This document shows positions 57,406 through 62,149 of a stretch of DNA of 64,000 bases, one piece after another. Within the stretch, counting starts at the first letter, position 1. Each line of letters opens with the position of its first letter. The notes under the pieces were generated by a model that was given only the letters and a program-made list of their open reading frames with translations, searched no databases and had not been told where the DNA came from. A program made the position numbers and the translations under genes. The stretch comes from Chromatiales bacterium (GTDB lineage: Bacteria; Pseudomonadota; Gammaproteobacteria; Steroidobacterales; Woeseiaceae), in assembly GCA_024679535.1 (NCBI GenBank), contig JAIBDF010000001.1, positions 85,748 to 149,747 of the forward strand. The letters are read 5' to 3'.

Positions 57406-58616
57406 GCCTCTACAGCTTCCCAGACACGCAGCAGGTTCTCGCCGAGAATCTTGCGGATGTCTTCTTCGCTGTAACCCCGTTTCAACAGGCCCTCGACCAG
57501 ATTTGGGTACTGGGATACATCCTTAAGCCCGATTGGCAGCGAATCGCCGACCCCGTCGAAGTCTGAACCGATACCGACGTTCTCGATGCTGGTCAGCTTT
57601 ACGACATGGTCAAAGTGATCCAGCACATCGTCGATCGATGCGAACGGCAGCGGTCCGTGGTCTTTCTCGTAGATTTCTCCGTAGCCGCGGTAGAGGAAGG
57701 CCTCGGTGAGTTCGGGATTCTCGGCGATATACGCCCGACCGGCAGCCATGCGTGCATCCCCGTAATCACGGGAAACCTGGTTTACAAACGTCGAGCCGAA
57801 ATTGATCTGAATGACACCACCATTTTTCGCCAGTGCAACAATCATTTCGTCACTCATATTGCGCTCGAATCCAGGGGTGAAATGCCGCGCCGATGAGTGC
57901 GATGCGATGGCAGGCGCTGCCGACAACTCCATGATCTGCCAGAACGCATCGTCGGACACGTGGCTGACGTCGACCATGATGCCCAGGCGATTCATTGCGG
58001 CGATCGACTCGCGGCCGAACTCGCTCAGGCCGCCCCACTGGCGGTTGGTGTCATATGACGAGTCTGAAAGGTGATTCGACAGACTGTGCGCCAGAGTCAC
58101 ATAGCGGATGCCTCGATCATAGAAGTGCTGCAGATTAGCGAGGTCACCCGCGATCGGTGAGCCATTTTCCATTCCCAGGGGCAGCGACATGATGCCAGCA
58201 TCGAACTGTTTCCTGACGTCGGCAGGCGTAAGCGCGATCGCAAACTTGTCCGGAGCACCCGCAACGATTTCCTCAACTGAATCGATCAGCTTGTCGGCAG
58301 CCTCCCGGGAGAGACCTTCGGCTTCCAGTTCGGCCGGTGTGTAGATCGACATGAAGGGCGCGTTCAGTCCGCCACGCAATGCTCGCGGATAGTCGAAGTC
58401 ACCGCTTTCGGTGGCCCGCGAAACGTCCTCGGAAGTACGTGCGAGCCGATACGGCACATCGATGTGGGAATCGACAACAATACTGGACTTGGCGATTCGC
58501 TGTGCTTCAGTCGCGAGATCGACAACGGGCTCTTCAACCGGTGTGACTTCTTTGCCGCAAGCGGCGAACAGTGTCGCGGCCACGGCCGCGGCTACTAGCA
58601 GGAGTTTGTTTGTCAT
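57375..58616 (-). CDS. membrane dipeptidase (M19), lipoprotein
   Basis: Lipobox LFAAC; VVDSHIDVPYRLA; GIMVDVSHVSDDAFWQIMELSAAPAIASHSSARHF; VGIGSDFDGVGDSLP. Confidence 0.92.
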   Translation of the reverse strand: MTNKLLLVAAAVAATLFAACGKEVTPVEEPVVDLATEAQRIAKSSIVVDSHIDVPYRLARTSEDVSRATESGDFDYPRALRGGLNAPFMSIYTPAELEAEGLSREAADKLIDSVEEIVAGAPDKFAIALTPADVRKQFDAGIMSLPLGMENGSPIAGDLANLQHFYDRGIRYVTLAHSLSNHLSDSSYDTNRQWGGLSEFGRESIAAMNRLGIMVDVSHVSDDAFWQIMELSAAPAIASHSSARHFTPGFERNMSDEMIVALAKNGGVIQINFGSTFVNQVSRDYGDARMAAGRAYIAENPELTEAFLYRGYGEIYEKDHGPLPFASIDDVLDHFDHVVKLTSIENVGIGSDFDGVGDSLPIGLKDVSQYPNLVEGLLKRGYSEEDIRKILGENLLRVWEAVEAYAATRSSST

Positions 58617-58687
58617 TGGGGAATTATTCACTGGCCCACGGGGTCGAAGATTGTAACAATAGATAGACGGTACGGTGCAAGGAGAAG

Positions 58688-59035
58688 ATGATGAGTGATA
58701 CCAACCCTCCGGCAGATCATGCGTTTGTTGATAAAAAAGAGCCGGGCAAACCCATTGAGGAGAACCTGAAGTCGCGCGCAACCTGGACGCGATTCCTGTT
58801 CATGTTCATCAGTTACCTTTTGATAAGTCTCGCCAGTATTGTCGGCACGTTTATTGTGGTCTTTGGTTTCCTCTGGGTACTGTTCACCGGCGCGGTGAAT
58901 CGCGAACTTCGTGGAGTAGGGCAAAGCCTCGCCGCTTATATTTACGAGAATGTCCGGTATCTGACGTTCAACACGGACGACCGTCCGTTCCCGTTCGGCA
59001 ACAAGTGGCCTGACGGCGGAACTGACGAGGATTAG
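58688..59035 (+). CDS. DUF4389 domain protein
   Basis: FVVFGFLWVLFTGAVNRELRGVGQSLAAYIYENVRYLTFNTDDRPFPFG. Confidence 0.85.
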   Translation: MMSDTNPPADHAFVDKKEPGKPIEENLKSRATWTRFLFMFISYLLISLASIVGTFIVVFGFLWVLFTGAVNRELRGVGQSLAAYIYENVRYLTFNTDDRPFPFGNKWPDGGTDED

Positions 59036-59036
59036 A

Positions 59037-59291
59037 TCAGACAGACAGTTCGCGCTGGCCCGGTTGCCAGTGGGTTAGATTGATGTGCGCACCCCCCATG
59101 CCGAGAGCGCGTACCCAGCGAGCGGCTGCGTCCAGAGTGACCCAGGTTCTCACTTTGCCCTTGCGCGTTTCCGCCGTAATTGGGCCGTTGGGTGTTTTCG
59201 CCTCCACATGAAAGCGTGCGCCGCTGGCAATGATGTTGATGTTCTTGATGGCACCGGCGGCGACCATCGCTTTCAACATGCGTTCATCCAT
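59037..59291 (-). CDS. small ParC-like partner protein of an RHH cassette
   Basis: MDERMLKAMVAAGAIKNINIIASGARFHVEAKTPNGPITAETRKGKVRTWVTLDAAARWVRALGMGGAHINLTHWQPGQRELSV; start overlaps RHH stop by 8 bp (ATGGATGA). Confidence 0.7.
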   Translation of the reverse strand: MDERMLKAMVAAGAIKNINIIASGARFHVEAKTPNGPITAETRKGKVRTWVTLDAAARWVRALGMGGAHINLTHWQPGQRELSV

Positions 59292-59478
59292 TTGGGTTCC
59301 CCGGGAAAAGGTCGTTCTGTTCTGGGATAGTGATGCCCGCTTCGCCACAGTGACGGCGAATCAACATCTCAACCATATTCGCAACGCTCCGGTGCTCACG
59401 TGCCGCGGCCTCGCGCACGGCTTCCTTGACGCCGGGCTCGATGCGCAGGTTCAACGTGGATACCTTGGTTTTAGCCAT
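59284..59478 (-). CDS. ribbon-helix-helix (CopG/Arc-like) DNA-binding protein
   Basis: STLNLRIEPGVKEAVREAAAREHRSVANMVEMLIRRHC is an RHH fold signature. Confidence 0.85.
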   Translation of the reverse strand: MAKTKVSTLNLRIEPGVKEAVREAAAREHRSVANMVEMLIRRHCGEAGITIPEQNDLFPGNPNG

Positions 59479-59519
59479 GCGTTACATTGTATATTAAATA
59501 AGACGAAAATGTAACGCAT
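59477..59519 (-). promoter_or_regulatory. operator/promoter of the RHH cassette
   Basis: Perfect 12-bp inverted repeat ATGCGTTACATT (59477-59488) / AATGTAACGCAT (59508-59519) with AT-rich 19-bp spacer. Confidence 0.75.
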
Positions 59520-59648
59520 TTTGCACGTAGTTTTTCGCACATCGCGAATGCGCTGACAATGCGGCGCTATACTACGGTCGTATTGCATTGCCTCTCCTGG
59601 CAATCGTGCTGGGGTGGACCAAGGTCTGGACAAGGCATAAAGGGTGTT

Positions 59649-60284
59649 ATGCGTTTAGAGAGTATTAACCTGGGCAGAGTGGCCACCATCGTCCATGGCA
59701 ACAAATCCTTTGAAACAGGAATCTGCAAGTACCCGGCTGAAGGCCCGGTGAGAGTGCACAAGCTGGGTCTTTCAGGTGACGCGATCATTGCGACGGAGCA
59801 TCATGGCGGCGCCGATCAGGCGATTTATGCATACAGTACCGATGACTACGACTGGTGGGCCGAGGAAGCCGGCCTTGACTGGTCTCCCGGGTTGTTCGGC
59901 GAAAACCTGACAATTCGCGATTTGCCCACCGATATGAACATTGGCGATCGTTTGCTAATCGGGGAGGTTGTACTGGAGGCAACAGCGCCGAGAATTCCCT
60001 GCGACACGCTGGCGGCACGGATTGAAGACCGGGGTTTTGGTATCGCATTTCGCAAAGCGGAGAGGCCCGGCATCTACTTCAGGGTCCTGAACGCTGGAGA
60101 GATCCAGTCAGGTGATGTTGTGACGCTGGTCGAAAGCGCTGAATTCAACGTCTCGATACTTGATCTGTTCCGCCATAAATACCGGCTGCAGCACGATGCA
60201 GCGGAGCTGCGGCGTCTCTTAGAGGCACCAATCGCAGCGCGATTTCGGGTCCAGATAGAAGAGAAACTCGCCGCGCTGAGCTGA
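59649..60284 (+). CDS. MOSC domain protein (YiiM-like)
   Basis: GLSGDAIIATEHHGGADQAIYAYSTDDYDWWAEE...LFGENLTIRDL; start at ATG 59649. Confidence 0.9.
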   Translation: MRLESINLGRVATIVHGNKSFETGICKYPAEGPVRVHKLGLSGDAIIATEHHGGADQAIYAYSTDDYDWWAEEAGLDWSPGLFGENLTIRDLPTDMNIGDRLLIGEVVLEATAPRIPCDTLAARIEDRGFGIAFRKAERPGIYFRVLNAGEIQSGDVVTLVESAEFNVSILDLFRHKYRLQHDAAELRRLLEAPIAARFRVQIEEKLAALS

Positions 60285-60359: not shown

Positions 60360-60500
60360 ATGGGTAACGTGATCGCAATCGTGTCGATCATTCTGGCGCT
60401 GTTTGCGGCCGGATGTATCGTCTATATAGCGCGCGAACTGACCTCGAAAGGGAACCTCCCGGACGCGCCTGAAGAGCACGACCGGGAGGAGGATTCCTAG
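60360..60500 (+). CDS. 46-aa single-TM small protein (not in supplied ORF track)
   Basis: MGNVIAIVSIILALFAAGCIVYIARELTSKGNLPDAPEEHDREEDS; stop shares ctag with the opposing DUF3300 gene. Confidence 0.45.
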   Translation: MGNVIAIVSIILALFAAGCIVYIARELTSKGNLPDAPEEHDREEDS

Positions 60501-62149
60501 GACCTGTTCCGGCGACGATTTTCCGATCGCTGTCTGGACGATCCCGAGCTGCCGCGTTCCTGGCGCTGAGGTGCCGGAGCGGAGCGCTGTGGCGCCTGAG
60601 GTGCCGGAGCGGAGCGCTGCTGCCGCTGAGGAGCCGGGGCTGAGCGCTGCTGCCGCTGAGGTGCCGGGGCTGAGCGCTGCTGCCGCTGAGGTGCCGGGGC
60701 CGAGCGTTGCTGCCGCTGAGGTGCCGGGGTCACACGCTGCTCACGCCGCTGCGCTTGTGATGGAGCGCGTTCACGGCGCTGTTCACCCGCCTGCTGAACC
60801 GGTGCACGGCGTTGTTGCCCGGAAGTTCGCGCCGTTGTATTGCGCCGCTGTGCAACCACTTCACCACGTTGCTGGGTTTGCGGGCGCTGCTCGCGCAGGT
60901 TGGCGACGTAATCTTGATTCTGGCGTGCTGCTCCATCGTTGCGGCGTTGCCGTGTGTTGCTGCCCTGCTGAGCCCGTTGTTCGTTGGTCCGTTGCTCCTG
61001 CGCACGTCTGCGCTGACCCTGTGTCCTGGCCTGAAAATCTACAGGGCGTTCTCGAAGCGCGACAGGTTCCTGACGATTGACAGACCGGGTCCGGGCACGC
61101 TGTTCCGTGCTGCGGCGCCTGTCGCTGACCTGGCGTTGCGCGTCGCGATTTGCGACATAACGGTTGTTCGCGGCGCGCGCGTCGGTTCGAACGGAGTCGC
61201 GACGATCATGTCGCGGACGCCAGCGGTCGCCGCTGTAGTAATTATTGACCGTAACGCGTGTATTCCCAACGTAATTGTTCTGGTAGTGGCTCATGGTCGG
61301 ACGGCGGTACCACCAGTTATCCCAGTAGTGGTGTCCGTAGTAGGGATGTCCGTAATAACTGTGATGGTGAACATGCAGGCTGCTCGTGTACCAGCCAATC
61401 GAGAAAGCTGTCGTCACGCCCCAGAAGTATCCGCGGTCAAAGTAATACGCTGACGAATATGGGTAGTAGTAGACCGGGTAGGAGCGCGGGTAGTAGTAGT
61501 AAACCGGCTGCGGCTGATAGACAACGACGCGTTCCGGCTCGTAATAGGGCACGTAAATGACATCGTCTGCGACTGGCGAGATTTCGATACGGTCGTCAGT
61601 ACGCGCAACGGTCTGGTACTCGTCGCTCTTGAGGTTGCCGGCATTGTAAGCGCGATCGCGAAATGTCTCGATCGCGGAAAGCACATCCTGCTGTTGAGCA
61701 ATAACGGCTTCGCCGAGACGCCAGGTCCAGTCGATGTCATCGTGCATCAGTTCGATAACTTCGGGGTAGTTAAGTAGCGCGACGACTGAATCGTCCCACT
61801 GTGGATCGGGTTTTAGTTCCGGATTGGATTCAAGCTCTTCGAGAAAGCGCGTCGCATCGAGGATCTGCTGAGGATAGGCGGCTGCCGGCAATATGATTGC
61901 GAGCAGGTCGTCCGGGTAGAGGGCGACCGGACCAACGAGTTCCTCGAGATCGATGGCGGACATCAATGGCACGTCGCTATTGGTTGCGCCAAGGTTCTCC
62001 GCCTCGGCAGCCAGGACAGGCTCATAAGCGCCGATTACCTTGCCGTCGTCGTCCACAGGTGCCTGGGCCCATCCAGCCAGGGGCTGCAGCGCCAGCAATG
62101 TGAGTATCAGTTTTGCCGGTCCAAAGGCGGCATATCGTTGCTTGTCCAT
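60497..62149 (-). CDS. DUF3300 domain protein with Arg/Gln-rich repetitive C-terminus
   Basis: LVGPVALYPDDLLAIILPAAAYPQQILDATRFLEE...DDRIEISPVADDVIYVPYYEPERVVVY. Confidence 0.88.
   Translation of the reverse strand: MDKQRYAAFGPAKLILTLLALQPLAGWAQAPVDDDGKVIGAYEPVLAAEAENLGATNSDVPLMSAIDLEELVGPVALYPDDLLAIILPAAAYPQQILDATRFLEELESNPELKPDPQWDDSVVALLNYPEVIELMHDDIDWTWRLGEAVIAQQQDVLSAIETFRDRAYNAGNLKSDEYQTVARTDDRIEISPVADDVIYVPYYEPERVVVYQPQPVYYYYPRSYPVYYYPYSSAYYFDRGYFWGVTTAFSIGWYTSSLHVHHHSYYGHPYYGHHYWDNWWYRRPTMSHYQNNYVGNTRVTVNNYYSGDRWRPRHDRRDSVRTDARAANNRYVANRDAQRQVSDRRRSTEQRARTRSVNRQEPVALRERPVDFQARTQGQRRRAQEQRTNEQRAQQGSNTRQRRNDGAARQNQDYVANLREQRPQTQQRGEVVAQRRNTTARTSGQQRRAPVQQAGEQRRERAPSQAQRREQRVTPAPQRQQRSAPAPQRQQRSAPAPQRQQRSAPAPQRQQRSAPAPQAPQRSAPAPQRQERGSSGSSRQRSENRRRNRS
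60557..60736 (-). repeat. 30-bp tandem repeat, six units, encoding RSAPAPQRQQ
   Basis: RVTPAPQRQQ / 3x RSAPAPQRQQ / RSAPAPQAPQ / RSAPAPQRQE in the translated minus strand. Confidence 0.9.

Follow-up and report, generated by a model that had tools for sequence, protein, structure and literature searches.

We infer from sequence comparison that two small overlapping genes in a MAG of the marine bacterial family Woeseiaceae constitute a self-contained negative-feedback regulator that is related to regulators of defence operons and is fixed in the chromosome. In the mechanism that we propose, the RHH protein encoded by the first gene would bind TGCGTTACATT (core CGTTACA/TGTAACG, quasi-palindrome YGTWACR), one dimer per site, at two inverted copies spaced 31 bp from centre to centre; this is about three helical turns, so that both sites would face the same side of the helix. 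The first would lie over the -35 element and the second over the start codon and the end of the -10 element, and binding of the RHH protein would thereby shut off both genes. The partner, P2, would be made from the same, probably leaderless, mRNA through translational coupling, and most likely serves as a co-regulator, tuning the RHH-DNA complex, and not as a toxin. The probability of this full statement, co-regulator included, is roughly 0.55; that the operon represses itself through the operator site, whatever the role of P2, appears considerably more probable, and on comparative grounds we regard it as likely.

The features of the locus are listed in Table 1; the window is the whole stretch of DNA that was analysed, 64,000 nucleotides in length. 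A sequence-only reading of the window had delimited the two genes and their overlap, and a re-check of the sequence and its open reading frames gave the same coordinates. That reading had also taken the genes to be coupled, and nearly every Woeseiaceae locus keeps the same 8-nt overlap (in L052 and L053 the genes are separated by 4 nt), which suggests translational coupling. P2 is the last gene of the operon, its downstream neighbour being convergent.

Table 1. Features of the RHH/P2 locus, in positions of the window
Feature	Position	Strand	Remarks
RHH gene, 64 aa	59284-59478	-	MetJ/Arc-type DNA-binding protein
P2 (ParC-like partner) gene, 84 aa	59037-59291	-	predicted alpha-beta3-alpha-beta-alpha fold
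RHH stop/P2 start overlap, 8 bp, ATGGATGA	59284-59291	-	
Distal operator arm, ATGCGTTACATT (minus-strand letters)	59508-59519	-	holds the -35-like GTTACA
Start-codon-proximal operator arm, AATGTAACGCAT (minus-strand letters)	59477-59488	-	overlaps the -10 end and the ATG
-35-like hexamer GTTACA	59510-59515	-	4/6 consensus match; inside distal arm
-10-like hexamer TACAAT	59486-59491	-	18-bp spacing to the -35

The two arms form a perfect 12-bp inverted repeat with a 19-bp spacer, exactly as had been reported, and the RHH start codon, which had been placed inside one arm, contributes its A and T to the proximal arm while its G lies outside. A single inverted repeat, taken alone, is statistically not overwhelming: repeats with all 12 pairs and a spacer of at most 40 begin at 6 positions of the 64-kb window, versus 0-1 per Markov shuffle (n = 10). 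Further short-spacer repeats of this kind are present in the window besides the operator, the six being the overall count. We judge the operator to be real because it is conserved across the Woeseiaceae, in the information of its arms and in register-specific pairing, and is found only once in its own genome. When 71 distinct sequences from upstream of Woeseiaceae RHH genes are compared, information is ~0.6-1.8 bits per base in the arms, falls to 0.1-0.6 in most of the spacer and is ~0.1 in the flank beyond -47, the conserved edge of the spacer being partly the -10. The arms pair in 53.3 of 71 in the true register versus at most 25.7 of 71 in 12 slid registers.

The core GCGTTACA occurs upstream of all 71 distinct Woeseiaceae RHH genes. 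The distal arm is better conserved than the proximal arm, whose (3') core is exact in 34 of the 71, and pairing is perfect over 12 pairs in only 12 and extends to at least 10 of 12 pairs in 39. Double changes that preserve pairing are seen in some members (for example, L029, L039 and L041); the idea that compensatory changes are near-universal proved wrong, most altered members being simply imperfect. The site also lies upstream of N10-type RHH genes (those with Asn at strand residue 10) in Luteimonas, HTCC2148, Thiotrichales and other gammaproteobacteria, at ~56-68% RHH identity, and distant relatives have one site, or two that stand in direct orientation or inverted at a shorter spacing (L137, L139, L165, L136). 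Since the perfect palindrome is rare and distant relatives are rearranged, the invariant element is a site of 8-11 bp and the palindrome is one arrangement of several; given the imperfect proximal arms and the few perfect palindromes, the two-site geometry is not essential. Some of the upstream regions of L047-L053 contain an extra GCGTTA in the spacer, most of these together with a degenerate proximal arm, as if binding sites were being turned over.

Comparative rather than experimental evidence thus backs the earlier proposal of an autoregulatory operator at the start codon. No second operator was found in the genome, either as the whole palindrome with up to 3 mismatches or as an exact TGCGTTACAWT, so the circuit reads as purely local, which points to regulation by the RHH protein being confined to its own locus, with no regulon.

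GTTACA-18-TACAAT is the sole promoter-like minus-strand match in 58600-59800, a match that is not informative alone, as shuffles of this region give a mean of 0.9. The AT-rich spacer had been suggested as a possible place of the -10 element, which lies there only in part, the hexamer straddling the spacer and the proximal arm. TAnnnT occupies positions -13 to -8 relative to the ATG in 60 of the 71 Woeseiaceae sequences; a Shine-Dalgarno-like motif in -18 to -4 is present in none of them, versus 4 of 12 outside the family. Because of the position of the -10 with the usual spacing, transcription is predicted to start at the A of the ATG or 1 nt before it, and the mRNA would probably be leaderless.

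The RHH protein contains the strand TLNLRI, in which T8 to R12 are invariant among homologues and T8, N10 and R12 correspond to Q9, N11 and R13 of Arc. Its best Pfam match, RHH_5, scores 22.3 bits against a cut-off of 26 (1.1e-4) and is shared by 21/21 RHH homologues; matches to other RHH models also fall below their cut-offs. The AlphaFold model (pLDDT 66) has helices at 15-26 and 30-47, the strand being unassigned in this monomer model. Thus, the polar/Arg pattern of the strand and the two model helices both agree with membership in the RHH/MetJ-Arc class, while the score stays under the curated family cut-off. Arc, CopG, MetJ and the RHH antitoxins are likewise small strand-helix-helix proteins with a polar-x-polar-x-Arg strand and an operator over their own promoter. 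The window RHH differs from these in lying below all Pfam gathering cut-offs, in having a partner that is neither a replication protein nor a recognised toxin, and in an operator that extends as far as the start codon, the gene being probably leaderless.

Strand residue 10 varies together with the operator sequence, on a possibly single split. Outside the Woeseiaceae, GCGTTACA is found upstream of 14/16 N10-type RHH genes versus 0/15 of the Thr/Ser10-type, and CAGTAC upstream of 10/15 Thr/Ser10-type versus 1/16 N10-type genes, one N10 row (L189) being probably not a true relative. The p-values for this association, 5e-7 (Fisher) and 6e-4, are descriptive, since the motif was picked after the sequences had been viewed, and the Fisher value overstates independence because one switch would suffice to explain the association, the tree being compatible with a single Asn/Thr change (support 60/28). 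Thr/Ser10-type loci next to defence genes, such as L170, carry GCAGTACATT-like repeats with a period of ~11 bp.

RHH relatives of the Thr/Ser10 type lie just upstream of defence genes. PADLOC was run on 20 large genes that follow RHH relatives, and 19 of them had a defence-family match at <=1e-5, a count to be read with the breadth of the SNF2 and AAA models in mind. These comprise all 17 scanned genes downstream of a Thr/Ser10-type RHH, mostly type I, II or III R-M with very low E-values (L169, HmaC, 2e-6, and L182, 5e-10, are the weak cases), and two of the three scanned downstream of an N10-type RHH (L140, REase_I; L157, MTase_I). The Thr/Ser10-type loci with an RHH gene immediately upstream of R-M or other defence genes are L167, L169-L171, L174-L183 and L185-L187; L172, L173, L184 and L188 lay outside the scan, and the neighbour of L184 is not defence-like. 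By comparison, 0/10 neighbours of the window pair, a small control, matched PADLOC, and the gene directly downstream is not a defence gene. The other branch of the RHH lineage would head R-M and other defence operons, and in the Woeseiaceae the pair would have become a fixed chromosomal locus devoid of a defence gene, if this is the direction of descent. A search of open-access PMC literature found no description of an RHH protein as a regulator of defence operons. It is possible, and we suggest it only tentatively, that the pair belongs to an undescribed family of RHH proteins regulating defence operons in gammaproteobacteria, as the branch that is fixed in the chromosome. In this reading a one-residue strand change (Asn10 versus Thr/Ser10) would have retargeted the operator, with GCAGTACATT giving way to GCGTTACATT, and the ParC-like co-regulator would elsewhere have become the regulatory half of ParE antitoxins.

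A parallel in position and logic is RptR, an all-alpha, small, first-gene autorepressor that heads type I R-M operons and binds TAGCTA at sites repeated over the -10 (PMC12255303). Its position before R-M genes and its logic are shared with the relatives of the window RHH; RptR is not, however, homologous to the window RHH, and the window pair is without R-M genes.

P2 homologues occur as one copy each in 53 of 60 same-genus genomes and also in four genomes of the same order; of the seven same-genus genomes without a match, several are incomplete and two are 93-96% complete. In most Woeseiaceae loci the flanking order is EF-G-like, Zn_peptidase_2, CitMHS transporter, a 77-aa protein, Peptidase_M19, DUF4389 and the pair, with MOSC beyond it at a variable distance; six Woeseiaceae-like loci (L116, L117, L121, L123, L129 and L130) are without these neighbours. 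The chromosomal housekeeping setting described by the sequence-only reading is borne out by this comparison. That reading had also held that homologues that are always chromosomal and beside an unrelated conserved neighbour would speak against a toxin-antitoxin-like or partition-like module; this constancy is found within the Woeseiaceae and breaks down outside, where the pair (in Luteimonas terricola, HTCC2148, a Thiotrichales MAG and others) has varied neighbours. No match was found in IMG/VR. The DUF3300 protein of the window (60497-62149, minus strand) has, near its C-terminus, a degenerate tandem repeat of PAPQRQQRSA-like units (60560-60740).

The role of P2 as a co-regulator is the weakest step of the proposed mechanism and an argument by analogy. 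A ParC-like domain ~30% identical to P2 makes up the first half of ~150-aa proteins encoded directly before RelE/ParE toxins, an arrangement found on plasmids and in genomes, one of these proteins having a PaaA2 tail over the Pfam cut-off. Because the domain is the N-terminal, regulatory end of antitoxins beside ParE, P2 may act in the same capacity. In the plasmid-borne pairs (L146, L147, L148, L191 and L192) the ParC-like/PaaA2-type antitoxin, with this same N-terminal domain, comes first and ParE second, the two genes overlapping or abutting; P2, unlike these antitoxins, has neither the C-terminal toxin-binding tail nor a ParE alongside, and its DNA reader is a separate RHH protein. Such antitoxin-like proteins directly before RelE/ParE were noted at L142-L148, L191 and L192, and the hosts of plasmids with the antitoxin type include Xanthomonas, Burkholderia, Serratia and Salmonella (361 plasmid records). 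Long open frames in G043, G052 and G055 had raised the possibility of an RHH-P2 fusion, which was dropped, as the loci show separate genes.

Alternatively, P2 may be an effector that stands outside the regulation, such as a nucleic-acid-binding protein, with the RHH protein keeping its dose constant. Both genes are under purifying selection, with a median dN/dS (NG86 on random pairs, many saturated pairs being excluded) of 0.06 for P2 and 0.10 for RHH, and the tighter constraint on P2, together with its invariant F27-H28, W50, W59 and W75, would fit such a role. So would its AlphaFold model (pLDDT 85), whose best PDB matches are the RNA-binding eL38 ribosomal proteins, although at E 3e-3 these and all other PDB matches are weak; P2 has no enzymatic motif or family, and it is nearly always coupled to RHH. 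One P2 homologue (L054/L131, 62% identical) has no RHH gene detected upstream, which favours an effector and which the negative-feedback model does not explain. On balance we consider an effector unlikely, though the best placed of the alternatives. A HicA-like fold, suggested by the order of secondary structure, was dropped, HicA being absent among the Foldseek matches listed, and the matches in BFVD are small, mostly unnamed phage proteins (best E 5e-6) that indicate no function.

Somewhat less likely still is a type II toxin-antitoxin system with an RHH antitoxin first, P2 as the toxin and autorepression by their complex; the sequence-only reading had proposed a toxin-antitoxin-like module as one of two options. 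Gene order, size, overlap and the operator at the start site are typical of such systems, and the RHH protein weakly matches the antitoxin-type Pfam models TacA1, FitA-like and ParD_like. P2, however, matched no toxin family at a meaningful score in Pfam, NCBIfam, PHROGs or PADLOC, and PDB yielded no toxin fold for it, the sequence and fold searches returning weak matches only; the operon ends at P2. The RHH protein, moreover, ends soon after its fold in a short, variable tail, no toxin-binding tail was found in the pair, the P2-related domain resides in antitoxins and not in toxins, and the pair is a single copy per genome in a fixed slot with vertical inheritance.

A plasmid-derived partition or incompatibility module, in which P2 would be ParC and the repeat a centromere-like site, is very improbable: RHH proteins can be centromere-binding proteins, and the faint ParC resemblance noted earlier was right as a lead, with 24/24 P2 homologues matching NF041544 (ParC family partition-associated protein) over its full length below threshold (best E 8.9e-6), but the window P2 scores 18.5 bits against a cut-off of 95, no protein in the 399 genomes of the phylum sample exceeds that cut-off, the neighbours examined (Peptidase_M19, DUF4389, MOSC, DUF3300, CitMHS and EF-G-like) are syntenic chromosomal genes that include no ParA, ParB or replication gene, the window P2 has no match in plasmids, and the site lies on the promoter, normally in two copies only.

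If the self-regulating operon is as we propose, it would offer, in compact and natural form, a test of the way in which an RHH strand residue determines the operator sequence, and a promoter-operator in which the -35, the -10, the start site and the start codon are merged. It would also correct the reflex of reading small RHH pairs automatically as toxin-antitoxin systems, and would point the way to a family of regulators of defence operons for which no description was found in open-access PMC.
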